From positions 1-7,850 of the forward strand of contig JAQGIJ010000259.1 of NCBI GenBank assembly GCA_028291285.1: a stretch of DNA of 7,850 bases. Direction: 5' to 3'. The notes below the pieces were generated by a model. The model saw only the letters and a program-made list of their open reading frames with translations. It did no database searches and was not told the origin of the DNA. Numbering within the stretch: position 1 is the first letter of the stretch; each line of letters starts with the position of its first letter. Below, piece after piece: positions 1,887-5,768 of this stretch. The DNA is from Phenylobacterium sp. (GTDB taxonomy: Bacteria; Pseudomonadota; Alphaproteobacteria; Caulobacterales; Caulobacteraceae). A program made the translations under genes and the position numbers.

Positions 1887-2558
1887 CTACTGGGAATTGC
1901 CGGCGGGCGCGCCGCTCAGCTTGGCCTGGATCGCCTTGGCCTTGTCGAGGTGCGCCTGCACCTTCGGCACGGTCTTGGCGGCGGCGGCCTTCAGGCCGGG
2001 GTCGTCGCCGTTCTGGGCGTAGCCGTTGAGCAGCGTGAGCGTCTCCTCGTGGGCCGCGACCTGCTGGTCGATGTAGGTCTTGTCGAAATCGGCCGGGCCG
2101 GCGGCCTTCAGGTTGTCCAGGAAGCCGTTGCGGCGCTGATCCAGGTCGGTCGGCGGCGTCTTGCCGGACTTGGCGATCACCGGCTTCATCTCGTTGCCGA
2201 GCGCGGTGTGGTCGGTGACCATCATCTTGGCGAAGGCCTTCACGTCGGCGTTCTTGGACTTCTGCTCGGCGATCTTGGCGGCCTGGATCTCGTAGGTGTT
2301 GCCCTGCACGAGATTGTTCACGAACGCGCCCGTGTCGTGCGAGCCGAGCGTCGAAGCCGAGGTCGCGCCGACGGCGGCGCCCATGGCGTCCTGCGCCTTG
2401 TTGACCGGCGTCGACTGGCCGGGATTGGCCTCCGACATCATGCTGTTGCCGCCCGCCGTGTTCCCGGTGTCGGCGGTGTTCCCACCAGCCTTCTTGTTGC
2501 AGGCGGCCAGCGTGAGCGTGGCGGCGACCGCCGCGGTCAGAAGCAGTGTGCGTTTCAT
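1887..2558 (-). CDS. DUF4142 domain lipoprotein (ferritin-like fold family)
   Basis: The 223-residue product begins with a lipoprotein signal: MKRT, a hydrophobic stretch, and the lipobox LAAC with Cys20 as the lipidated residue. A low-complexity linker rich in Gly, Asn, Thr and Ser (21-70) follows. The DUF4142 domain covers about 77-212, with the motifs FVNNLVQGNTYEIQAAKIA (79-97), VTDHTALG (114-121), DQQVAAHEETLTLL (164-177) and KVQAHLDKAK (199-208). DUF4142 proteins form a helical bundle related to ferritin-like domains; His117, His170, Glu171 and His203 are visible candidate ligands. The biochemical role of the family is not established; members are frequent in stress regulons of soil bacteria. 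A GGGAG sequence stands upstream of the ATG at 2558. It is expected in the periplasm, anchored to a membrane. It is convergent with the small gene at 1507 and divergent from the kinase at 2825. Confidence 0.88.
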   Translation of the reverse strand: MKRTLLLTAAVAATLTLAACNKKAGGNTADTGNTAGGNSMMSEANPGQSTPVNKAQDAMGAAVGATSASTLGSHDTGAFVNNLVQGNTYEIQAAKIAEQKSKNADVKAFAKMMVTDHTALGNEMKPVIAKSGKTPPTDLDQRRNGFLDNLKAAGPADFDKTYIDQQVAAHEETLTLLNGYAQNGDDPGLKAAAAKTVPKVQAHLDKAKAIQAKLSGAPAGNSQ

Positions 2559-2824: not shown

Positions 2825-3742
2825 GTGGCCGAGGTCGTCGCAATCGGAGAATGCATGGTGGAGGTGGGGCTGATCGGCCCCGGCCAGGCCGCGCTCGGCT
2901 ATGCCGGAGACACCTTCAACACCGCGGTCTATCTGCGCCGGCTGGGCCGCTCCGTCGCCTATGGCACGGCGGTCGGCGGGGACGATCCGTTCAGCGCCGG
3001 CATCCTGAGGCTGATGGCCGACGAGGGCGTCGACGCGAGCCTGGTGCGCCAGGTCGAAGGCCGGCTGCCGGGGGTCTACGCCATCGACCGCGACCCGGCG
3101 GGCGAGCGGCGCTTCTTCTACTGGCGCGCGGAGTCCCCGGCGCGCGACTATTTCGCCCTCGCCGACCGCGACGCCCTGCACAGGGCGGTGACCGAGGCCA
3201 AGCTCGTCTACGTCTCCGGCGTGACCCTGGCGATCATCGGCGAGGCCGGCCGCCAGGTGCTGCTCGAGCTACTCGCCGCGGCCAAGGCGGCCGGCGCAGC
3301 GGTGGCGCTCGACCCCAACCACCGCCCGCAGCTCTGGCGCAGCCCGGACGAGGCGCGGGCGGCGATCGAGGCGGTGATCCCGTACTGCCGCTACGTCTCC
3401 ACTGGCGCCTCGGACCTTGCCGGCCTGTTCGGCGAGGCAGGGAGCGCCAAGGCGCAGGCCTGGGCGGCCGACGGCGTGGAGGTGGTGATCCGCGCCGACG
3501 ACTACGCGGTCACGGTCCGTCTCGGCGGCGAGACGCTGAAGCTTCCGCCCGATCCGCCGGTCCGTGCGCTGGACACCACCGGCGCGGGCGACGCCTTCAA
3601 CGCCGGCTATCTGTGGGCCCGGCTGGCCGGTCGTGAGCCGCGCGCGGCGGTGCGCACGGCGCGGCGGCTGGCCAACTTCGTGGTGCAGCACATCGGCGCG
3701 ATCATTCCGCGAGCAGCCATGCAGGCGGCGCAGGCGTCCTGA
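2825..3742 (+). CDS. kdgK: 2-keto-3-deoxygluconate kinase, PfkB/ribokinase family
   Basis: Predicted to phosphorylate 2-keto-3-deoxygluconate with ATP to 2-keto-3-deoxy-6-phosphogluconate, feeding the lower Entner-Doudoroff pathway in the cytoplasm. The 305-residue length is normal. The N-terminal GECMVEV (8-14) and the substrate-site segment YAGDTFNTAVYLRRLG (26-41) are typical of KDG kinases. FFYWRAESPARDYF lies in the substrate lid region and ALDPNHRPQLWR in the central part. The PfkB signature DTTGAGDAFNAGYL (250-263) carries the catalytic Asp256 and the anion hole. The start is GTG at 2825, preceded by AGAGGGGGG. No Entner-Doudoroff or uronate genes lie beside it in this window, so it seems to stand alone. 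A related 2-keto-sugar or fructose kinase is possible, but the Y-A-G-D-T-F-N motif favours KDG. Confidence 0.88.
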   Translation: MAEVVAIGECMVEVGLIGPGQAALGYAGDTFNTAVYLRRLGRSVAYGTAVGGDDPFSAGILRLMADEGVDASLVRQVEGRLPGVYAIDRDPAGERRFFYWRAESPARDYFALADRDALHRAVTEAKLVYVSGVTLAIIGEAGRQVLLELLAAAKAAGAAVALDPNHRPQLWRSPDEARAAIEAVIPYCRYVSTGASDLAGLFGEAGSAKAQAWAADGVEVVIRADDYAVTVRLGGETLKLPPDPPVRALDTTGAGDAFNAGYLWARLAGREPRAAVRTARRLANFVVQHIGAIIPRAAMQAAQAS

Positions 3743-3765
3743 AGGCCAGGCTAAGATCGCGAAGG

Positions 3766-3811
3766 GGACCGGCCCGACTGGAGTGGGGCTCGCGTGTGAG
3801 CGGGCCGGTCC
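3766..3811. terminator. 11-bp perfect stem-loop between convergent genes, probable terminator
   Basis: GGACCGGCCCG (3766-3776) pairs perfectly with CGGGCCGGTCC (3801-3811) around a 24-base loop. It follows the kinase stop by 23 bases and can end that transcript. Read on the minus strand it forms the 3' part of the candidate small RNA. No clean T tract follows on either strand, so a Rho-dependent or processing role is also possible. Confidence 0.5.
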
Positions 3812-3843
3812 GTTCGGCGTGCGGAATGAACACGGGGAACGTG
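3766..3843 (-). ncRNA. Candidate stress-induced small RNA (about 80-90 nt)
   Basis: Inferred from a promoter and RNA structure, not from homology. The minus-strand promoter at 3848-3873 would start transcription near 3840-3843. The RNA would open with CACG-UUCCC-CGUG (3843-3831), a small hairpin showing a C-rich loop. A GUUC/GAAC pair (3831-3828 with 3815-3812) is an alternative fold. It would end in the strong stem 3811-3801/3776-3766. No open reading frame with a ribosome binding site is seen in it. The Caulobacter sRNA GsrN is known to depend on SigT and to use a C-rich 5' loop to bind G-rich mRNA leaders; the layout here is similar. I cannot confirm sequence homology, and the exact ends are estimates. 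Confidence 0.45.
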
Positions 3844-3847
3844 CCTA

Positions 3848-3873
3848 AACGTCGGCATTATAAGTCGAGTTCC
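3848..3873 (-). promoter_or_regulatory. Full-consensus EcfG/SigT-type promoter (GGAAC-N17-CGTT) in a convergent gap
   Basis: On the minus strand GGAAC (3873-3869) and CGTT (3851-3848) are separated by exactly 17 bases, with no mismatch to the general stress response consensus. The spacer contains TATAAT (3862-3857), so a vegetative promoter is also conceivable. It lies 23 bases beyond the stop of the acyl-CoA dehydrogenase gene and points away from it toward the kinase 3' end, so no protein gene is downstream on this strand. The local sequence is richer in A/T than its surroundings. Confidence 0.55.
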
Positions 3874-3895
3874 AGACAATACCGAAAAGGTTCCG

Positions 3896-5110
3896 CTATT
3901 TCGGGTCGGGCAGCGCGAGCACGCGCTTGGAGATGATGTTGAGGTTCACCTCCGAGGTGCCGCCCTCGATGGAATTGCCCTTGGCCCGCAGCCAGCCGCG
4001 GGTGGCGGTCCGCTCGGCCTCGTCGAACCCCGGCCCCGCCCAGCCCAGCCCCTGGGCGCCCATGGCCTCGATCATCAGCTCGCTGCGCTCCTGGGCGAAG
4101 CTGGCGGCGGCGTACTTGATGATCGAGATCGCCGGGGAGGGGCCGGTCCTGGACGCCTCGGCCTCGGCGTCGGTGCGCGCGATGGTCAGGTTGAGGCAGC
4201 GGAAGTCCATCTTGTTGCGCGTGATCCGGCCGCGCAGATCGCCGTCGGCGAGGCGGCCCTGCGCGTCCTTGCCCAGGTAGCGCTTGGCGATCTCGGCCAG
4301 GTCGCCCGGCGCCCCGCCGGCCAGGCCGCCGCCCGCGCCGAAGCCCGCGCCGACGTTGCGGCGCTCGTATTCCAGCAGCCGCTTGGCGATCGGCCAGCCG
4401 CCGTTCACCCCGCCCACCATGTTCTCCTTCGGGATTTTCACGTCGGTGAAGAAGGTCTCGCAGAACGGGCTCTCGCCGCTGATCAGCTGGATCGGCCGGG
4501 TCTCGACGCCGGGCGTGGCCATGTCGATCAGCACGAAGGAGACGCCGCCCTGCTTGCGGCTGGTGTCGGTGCGCACCAGGCAGAAGCACCAGTCGGCCTT
4601 GTTGGCGTAGCTGGTCCAGACCTTCTGGCCGTTGATCAGCCAGTGGTCGCCCTTGTCCTCGCAGCGGGTCGAGAGGCCCGCCAGGTCCGAGCCGGCGCCG
4701 GGCTCCGAATAGCCCTGGCACCAGCGGATCTCGCCTCTGGCGATCTTCGGCAGGTGGTCGCGCTTCTGCACCTCGTCGCCGTACTCGATCAGCGCCGGGC
4801 CCAGCATCATCACGCCGAAGGAGATCAGCGGCGGGCGATATCCCCCGGCGGCCAGCTCCTCGCGCAGCACCTCGGACTCGGTGACGGAAAGCCCGGCGCC
4901 GCCGTACTCGGTGGGGAAGGTGGGCGCGGTCAGGCCCCGCTCCGCGGCGCGGCGCATCCAGACGATCTGCGGATCCTGCGAGTCGACGAAACGGCGGCCG
5001 GCGAACAGCGCCTCCGGATCTGTGGCGACGTTGGGGTTGCGCAGCTCGGGCGGATAGGCGGCCGCCAGCCAGGCGCGGATCTCGGTGCGGAAGCTCTCGA
5101 GGTCGGACAT
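3896..5110 (-). CDS. Acyl-CoA dehydrogenase family protein
   Basis: An FAD-dependent flavoenzyme of 404 residues expected to oxidise an acyl-CoA thioester to the 2-enoyl-CoA and pass electrons to electron transfer flavoprotein. Domains in order: the N-terminal helical domain (1-130) with APTFPTEYGGAG (62-73); the middle beta domain with the flavin-site motif YSEPGAGSDLAGL (134-146) and NGQKVWTS (160-167); and the C-terminal helical domain with IEGGTSEVNLNIISKRVL (381-398). The residue aligning with the catalytic Glu of medium-chain enzymes (YEGT) appears to be Gly383, with Glu382 next to it, as in relatives carrying IYGGTSE. The substrate may thus be a branched, aromatic or steroid-like acyl-CoA, but this cannot be decided here. 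The ATG at 5110 has AGAGAAGAG upstream. The stop lies 67 bp after the FMN reductase stop on the same strand-wise run, suggesting co-transcription from the reductase. Confidence 0.93.
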   Translation of the reverse strand: MSDLESFRTEIRAWLAAAYPPELRNPNVATDPEALFAGRRFVDSQDPQIVWMRRAAERGLTAPTFPTEYGGAGLSVTESEVLREELAAGGYRPPLISFGVMMLGPALIEYGDEVQKRDHLPKIARGEIRWCQGYSEPGAGSDLAGLSTRCEDKGDHWLINGQKVWTSYANKADWCFCLVRTDTSRKQGGVSFVLIDMATPGVETRPIQLISGESPFCETFFTDVKIPKENMVGGVNGGWPIAKRLLEYERRNVGAGFGAGGGLAGGAPGDLAEIAKRYLGKDAQGRLADGDLRGRITRNKMDFRCLNLTIARTDAEAEASRTGPSPAISIIKYAAASFAQERSELMIEAMGAQGLGWAGPGFDEAERTATRGWLRAKGNSIEGGTSEVNLNIISKRVLALPDPK

Positions 5111-5177
5111 GGCTCTTCTCTTATCGGCGGCGCACCGCGGGTGGAAGCGCCTGCGACGCCGCGCGACGGCCCTGCGC

Positions 5178-5768
5178 TCAGTAGGGCGGCGGCCGCACCA
5201 GCCGCTGGGCCCTGGCCGCTTCAGTCCACCAGGCGAGGTCGTCGGCGAAGCGCGGGAAGGCCCGTTCCAGCGCAGCGCCTGGGTCGCCGATCGGCGACCC
5301 GCTCGCGTCCAGCGTCTGGGCGATCGGCCCCACGCTCAGGGTGCTGGAGACGACGACCATGCCCATCTCCGCGAGCGTGTTGTGCCAGGCATAGGCCGAG
5401 CGCACGCCGGAGAAGCGGCCGGCCGAGTAGCTGGCGATAGCGGCGGGGCGCCAGAACCATTCCTCGAGGAAGTGGTCGGTGAGGTTCTTCAGCCCGGGCT
5501 GGACGCCCCAGTTGTACTCGCCGGTGACGAAGACGAAGGCGTCGGCCGCGACGATCTTCTGCGCCAGCTGCTCCAGGGCGGGCGGCGCCGCGCCCTTCGG
5601 GTGCTCCTTGTACATCAGGTCCAGCATCGGCAGGCCCACGGCGCGGGCGTCGATCAGCTCCGCCTCCGCGCCCAGCGCTTGAAACCGCGCGGTGACGAAG
5701 TCCGCCAGGCGGATGCCCATGCGGGTGCGGCGGTAGGAGCCGTAGAAGATCAGGATCTTGTCAGCCAT
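5178..5768 (-). CDS. NAD(P)H-dependent FMN reductase (flavodoxin-like fold)
   Basis: A cytoplasmic flavoprotein of 196 residues, predicted to reduce FMN, quinones, azo dyes or similar acceptors with NAD(P)H. The N-terminal strand and phosphate loop read KILIFYGSYRRTRMG (4-18), with GSYR binding the FMN phosphate. The second flavin motif is VTGEYNWGVQPGLKNLTDH (81-99), matching the family's PEYN...PGxLKN. A third, YSAGRFSGVRSA (114-125), follows. Length is normal. The start ATG at 5768 has GGGGGAAG upstream at a slightly long spacing. It precedes the acyl-CoA dehydrogenase gene with a 67-bp gap, so both may form one unit, and it stands 83 bp behind radC. The natural acceptor cannot be told from sequence. 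Confidence 0.89.
   Translation of the reverse strand: MADKILIFYGSYRRTRMGIRLADFVTARFQALGAEAELIDARAVGLPMLDLMYKEHPKGAAPPALEQLAQKIVAADAFVFVTGEYNWGVQPGLKNLTDHFLEEWFWRPAAIASYSAGRFSGVRSAYAWHNTLAEMGMVVVSSTLSVGPIAQTLDASGSPIGDPGAALERAFPRFADDLAWWTEAARAQRLVRPPPY

Follow-up and report, generated by a model that had tools for sequence, protein, structure and literature searches.

A probable small RNA gene with a general-stress-type promoter, conserved in Phenylobacterium and separate from gsrN

Sequence comparison suggests that the gap between the kdgK and acyl-CoA dehydrogenase genes in the window (the whole 7,850 nt stretch of Phenylobacterium DNA analysed here) holds a genuine gene for a small regulatory RNA, conserved among relatives and equipped with a general-stress promoter. 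Positions 3873–3766 of the minus strand probably constitute an EcfG-driven gene for a base-pairing sRNA of about 76 nt, belonging to a second stress family that is distinct from gsrN. This family, which occurs in Phenylobacterium, is apparently undescribed: no such sRNA family was found by title and abstract opening among the open-access papers listed, and GsrN is the sole SigT/EcfG-dependent sRNA described for Caulobacteraceae in the literature searched. The comparison supports this reading through a conserved promoter pair, covarying hairpins, persistence of the element while its neighbours change, and its distinctness from gsrN.

The gap is indeed convergent, as the preliminary description had it, with the kdgK-type sugar kinase gene (PfkB family, 2825–3742, plus strand) ending at 3742 and the acyl-CoA dehydrogenase gene (3896–5110, minus strand) at 3896, the stop codon of the latter lying 22 nt before the −35 sequence on the same strand. 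The stress promoter claimed for the minus strand was likewise confirmed, since 3873–3848 reads GGAAC-N17-CGTT, with the −35 GGAAC at 3869–3873 (inside GTCTGGAACTCGAC) and the −10 CGTT at 3848–3851, 17 nt from it. This agrees with the SigT/EcfG-type rule GGAAC-N15-17-CGTT, given as GGAAC, 15–17 nt and CGTT in PMC5869019. The pattern GGAAC-N15-18-CGTT occurs only once in the window, where 0.12 occurrences are expected after shuffling, and at least one was present in 22 of 200 window shuffles; GGAAC-N16/17-CGTT on either strand was seen in 112 of 20,000 shuffles of the 153-bp gap. Taken alone the motif is moderately unlikely by chance, and the case therefore rests on conservation.

Among the genomes searched, both flanking genes were closest to Phenylobacterium, the genus of G003, with best identities of 75% for the dehydrogenase and 64% for kdgK. 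A contig search with kdgK gave at least 80 loci, few of them from Caulobacteraceae. As kdgK and radC are close together in several relatives, kdgK regions were chosen for reading, and 20 of these from 19 genomes were read 3′ of kdgK, with one contig (L250) stopping at kdgK. The same element was present in three regions (G015, G003 and G021), and G007 was added as a fourth once a covariance model had matched it. These three copies have GTCTGGAAC(C/T)CGA at the −35 position followed by a C-rich stretch, and 3′ arms GGA(C/T)CGG(C/T)CC flanking GAGCCCC..CTCCAG. When 101 Phenylobacterium genomes were searched by pattern, 28 rows in 27 genomes were obtained, comprising five family copies and 23 unrelated sequences, with G035 and G068 as the new copies. 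Six copies including that of the window aligned over the entire element, beginning ahead of the −35 and extending through the 3′ stem, with a mean column identity of 71%. The comparison with the same gap in related genomes, which had been proposed as a check, showed the promoter, the two-hairpin layout and the 3′ stem to be conserved.

The element had no clear match in a DNA search of four genomes, and matches of the 136-bp element at E ≤ 0.02 in 32 of 390 family genomes all spanned 19–38 bases; nine of the loci fetched from among them have GAGCCCCACTCCAG inside one apparently conserved coding sequence and were taken as chance. Rfam 15 gave no match above the gathering cut-off in the window, its best sub-threshold match over the gap (E 0.89) being on the opposite strand, and no match over the element in the loci of six relatives.

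A covariance model built from the six copies (R1) places the whole conserved element, from the promoter to the end of the 3′ hairpin, at 3760–3889 of the minus strand (101.5 bits, a match by construction as the window is in the seed). Searched in 390 family genomes, R1 matched at least 36 at E ≤ 0.05, and the clearest matches beyond the five seed genomes were in G098 (8.4e-11), G045 (1.7e-10), G058 (2.0e-7), G007 (2.3e-7, between kdgK and radC) and G031 (6.3e-7). Outside Phenylobacterium the R1 matches were weak (best 6.0e-4, in G267); those in G267 and G276 looked unrelated on inspection, as did, by eye, weak matches such as L315, L316, L318 and L325. A second model (R3) was built from 13 copies, with the R1 matches in G032, G034, G008 and G101 excluded from the seed. 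It matched at least 45 of the 101 Phenylobacterium genomes at E ≤ 0.1, and at least 33 by hand count at E ≤ 1e-4 (12 seed genomes and 21 others), these counts being lower bounds since strict filters were applied, and the best candidates alone scored, whenever over 40 genomes were searched. No R3 match was obtained in the two genomes tested outside the genus, which says little. A match in G078 (L391) looks gsrN-like and not like a family member, so R3 can catch gsrN-like genes at E of about 0.002. The EcfG-system marker nepR was present in 28 of the 33 element genomes, and also in 49 of the 68 other Phenylobacterium genomes (hand counts), so the element does not simply accompany the EcfG system.

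For closer comparison 43 copies were aligned, consisting of the window and 42 of 57 R3 rows, after removal of the 15 rows with the poorest matches (E of 0.012 or more). They divide into eight copies of subtype I, 32 of subtype II and three others, among them the gsrN-like G078 (7, 33 and 3 by script, before G007 (L366) was moved by synteny). Subtype I thus comprises the window, G015, G003, G021, G035, G068, G098 and, by synteny, G007, and two copies of different subtypes (I and II) are present in G003, G007, G015, G021 and G035. The −35 GGAAC is kept in 43/43 aligned copies and is followed at 16 or 17 nt by NGTT in 42/43 (GGTT 21, AGTT 7, TGTT 7, CGTT 7), the exception being the G015 copy with ATTG; NGTT also lies 16–17 nt past GGAAC in 30/30 copies outside the seed, although these counts are not fully independent of the search because the covariance models include promoter columns. 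In subtype I, the window included, conservation around the −35 extends beyond GGAAC alone (GTCTGGAACYCGAC). This could point to a real sRNA read by another ECF sigma factor with a GGAAC −35, of which E. coli RpoE, recognising GGAACTT according to PMC8103513, is an example. We consider such an assignment quite improbable, as GGAAC-N16/17-NGTT fits both the SigT rule (PMC5869019) and the GGAAC/NGTT-type promoters that are also found at the gsrN and nepR loci of the relatives' genomes.

Conservation of the C-rich 5′ loop, which the preliminary description had coupled to that of the promoter, held only in part: six of the eight subtype I copies are predicted to form a 5′ hairpin with a C-rich loop, the window and G007 copies being the exceptions. 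In the 3′ loop, six subtype I copies have the motif GAGCCCC-(1–5 nt)-CTCCAG, G098 a variant of it and G007 a different sequence. Subtype II mostly shows AACGACUUGCCUGUCGG in its 5′ hairpin, with CCUGGCAUCCCCCCGACC or a closely similar sequence in its 3′ loop, and six copies (L364, L375, L378, L379, L385 and L390) combine a C-rich 5′ loop with the subtype II 3′ loop, thus linking the subtypes. In the 3′ helix of the 43 copies, 8/11 pairs vary on both sides, and 14/27 pairs do so in an alignment (A8) of 26 of the 32 subtype II copies, from which six with a C-rich 5′ loop were omitted. The observed values were reached in none of 500 shuffles, by any of five measures and in either alignment.

The predicted window RNA opens with a 5′ hairpin at 3812–3840 of the minus strand (GUUC-CC-CGUGU-UCAUUCC-GCACG-CC-GAAC), at a position matching the 5′ hairpin of the relatives. 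Its pair probabilities of 0.94–0.999 led us to reject, as the main fold, the CACG-UUCCC-CGUG hairpin (3843–3831) put forward previously, which had values of 0.0000–0.0032 in three start-site variants. The C-rich 5′ loop described for the window copy gives way to UCAUUCC; the CCCC at 3837–3834 is predicted to be partly base-paired, and an unpaired run of 6–8 C residues is absent from the 5′ half of the RNA. The closing 11-bp stem, in contrast, was found as described, with arms GGACCGGCCCG/CGGGCCGGUCC formed by 3811–3801 paired with 3776–3766. It belongs to the 3′ hairpin (3766–3811, minus strand), which is the presumed end of the RNA and has a helix that covaries in the family. The loop of this hairpin holds the C-rich stretch GAGCCCCACUCCAG (3778–3791, minus strand), a candidate pairing site. 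The window copy retains a complete −10 (CGTT) as well as the stem and GAGCCCCACUCCAG; having lost the C-rich 5′ loop, it may differ from its kin in target choice, or may be decaying. No ORF of at least 60 aa starts within the predicted transcript, and a 140-aa ORF antisense to kdgK (3691–3269, minus strand), which starts 75 nt past the stem, is probably spurious.

The two main weak points of the sRNA reading are the missing U tract and a strand test that disagrees between alignments. The sequence just past the stem is CCCUUCG, and a pattern scan of 3500–4200 found no U-tailed terminator; G-U versus A-C changes favour the RNA strand by 33 to 12 in subtype II, and are against it by 17 to 38 in all 43 copies. 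Both points would suit a locus without any RNA gene, where kdgK and the gene facing it would share the hairpin as a terminator working in both directions and the resemblance to a promoter would be fortuitous. The same holds for the convergent arrangement in the window and for the near-perfect GC-rich inverted repeat, to which the models give low-scoring matches on the opposite strand too. We judge this unlikely in view of the loci of the relatives. The element begins just 3′ of the same-strand neighbour gene, which is DUF885 in G015, G021, G035 and G068, radC in G003 and G007, and the acyl-CoA dehydrogenase gene in the window. On the other side lies kdgK in the window, G015, G003, G021 and G007, but in G035 and G068 the element and kdgK are on separate contigs, and the gene on the other side in G035 encodes an Na/Pi cotransporter and has the same orientation as the element. 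Some subtype II copies adjoin Sir2, YGGT/DUF167 or ammonium-transporter genes. The element is thus independent of any one host gene, which argues against a mere kdgK terminator, as do the conservation of GGAAC and NGTT at fixed spacing and the covariation of the second, 5′ hairpin in subtype II.

The direction of the promoter towards kdgK, together with the failure of the pattern scan to find a U-tailed terminator, would also agree with a longer stress-induced antisense transcript running past the hairpin into kdgK and lowering kinase expression. This appears very improbable, as conservation stops at the hairpin, 24 nt before the kdgK stop, and copies persist without kdgK (G035 and G068) and beside other genes (subtype II).

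Several further features of these neighbourhoods were noted. In the window, the acyl-CoA dehydrogenase gene and an FMN reductase gene (3896–5768) separate the element from radC, where the relatives have DUF885 or radC directly; the best dehydrogenase match of the relatives sits elsewhere, often among further dehydrogenase genes. The subtype II copies L307 and L310 (G045 and G031) are located about 40 and 446 nt upstream of a same-strand Sir2-family gene, and their opposite flank is occupied by a gene for an RTX/beta-helix protein.

The preliminary description had left a choice between a GsrN homologue and a separate stress sRNA, and the evidence favours the latter, supporting a minus-strand gene of general-stress type. 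GsrN (ccna_R0081) is a SigT-dependent sRNA of Caulobacter crescentus, typically encoded near the ecfG-nepR-phyR locus; it binds the katG leader through a C-rich loop, and is processed to a 5′ isoform, stabilised by Hfq and active in katG activation (PMC5869019). A gsrN pattern made from target strings in that paper was found in at least 250 of 390 family genomes (at least 19 for the reversed control, hand count), with a few of the listed rows not being gsrN. A gsrN covariance model from 13 gsrN copies (R2) recovered the held-out gsrN genes L180 and L184 at 2e-31 and 4.9e-32, and had no match in the window even at a limit of E = 10; among 13 loci that carry the new element it gave only two stray matches (E 3.7 and 9.5), both off the element. 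That the element is the gsrN gene of its host would be consistent with the promoter type, the C-rich stretch and the similar size, but has next to no probability, since the gsrN model misses the element, the gsrN core (consensus TGCGGAGGCGGCGACGCCCCCC..GACTT, with many invariant columns in 13 aligned copies) is absent from it, and a separate gsrN distinct from the element was present in 9/9 genomes tested, seven of them with subtype I copies. GsrN homology was rejected on these grounds.

The new element resembles GsrN in its GGAAC/GTT promoter type, exposed C-rich sequence, length of about 100 nt and 3′ hairpin, and subtype II relatives have the stretch CCCCCCGAC in common with it. It differs in having two separate hairpins, where the C-run of gsrN is enclosed by a long closing stem (GCGGAGGCGGC/GCCGUCUCCGC), in lacking the U tract that gsrN has as the U-rich tail of an intrinsic terminator, in the absence of any sequence or covariance-model match to gsrN, and in location, as gsrN is found no more than about 2.3 kb from nepR in 8/9 genomes (the exception being G021) and the new element does not; no ecfG-, nepR- or phyR-type gene was noticed by eye in the part of the window ORFs scanned. 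Two further loci, L331 in G007 and L391:1532–1655 in G078, are gsrN-like, with an EcfG-type promoter and C6–7-GACT, and differ from canonical gsrN, with L331 being a second gsrN-like copy beside the canonical gsrN of G007.

With a conserved EcfG-type promoter ahead of a conserved non-coding structured RNA, the element has the hallmarks of EcfG-dependent sRNAs. We infer that it is transcribed, with EcfG/SigT, the general stress sigma factor, recognising GGAAC-N17-CGTT, and that transcription would begin near 3841 under stress and end at the GC-rich hairpin at 3811–3766, so that the RNA would be about 76 nt long and have one hairpin in its 5′ part and one at its 3′ end. The unpaired C-rich stretch of the 3′ loop, GAGCCCCACUCCAG, could then pair with G-rich mRNA leaders or ribosome-binding sites, and this pairing may alter translation of target mRNAs under stress, by analogy with GsrN and its own loop. 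A broader scheme, which we advance tentatively and give somewhat less than even chances, is that Phenylobacterium has, beside gsrN, dispersed, sometimes two-copy, EcfG-driven sibling sRNAs with exchangeable hairpin modules. With CCCCCCGAC common to subtype II and gsrN, the stress response would on this scheme use several sRNAs on overlapping G-rich mRNA sites, the window copy being a diverged sibling with changed targets.

If a second family shares the promoter type of GsrN but not its architecture, and one subtype has part of the C-rich sequence in common with it, a multi-sRNA post-transcriptional arm of the stress response would become testable. Such an arm would parallel the E. coli RpoE regulon, and the division of targets among siblings would be testable as well. 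The RpoE-dependent sRNAs MicA, RybB and MicL (PMC8103513) similarly provide more than one sRNA per ECF sigma factor, with a different sigma factor in other bacteria. The alphaR8/SisA-D sRNAs of Caulobacter (PMC12559287) are alike in having a pyrimidine-rich stretch able to reach ribosome-binding sites and several siblings per genome, but their conserved 10-mer UUUCCUCCCU is absent from the window RNA, and their promoters have no common motif according to that paper, whereas the promoter is the shared part here.

Two other terminator-like structures were seen in the window. A GC-rich inverted repeat at 2644–2669 (GGCCCCCGC/GCGGGGGCC) lies between a lipoprotein-like gene (1887–2558, minus strand) and kdgK, and a perfect 12-bp inverted repeat at 1843–1870 (ACGGCGGCCGTC-GCGA-GACGGCCGCCGT) is located in the gap before the lipoprotein-like gene.
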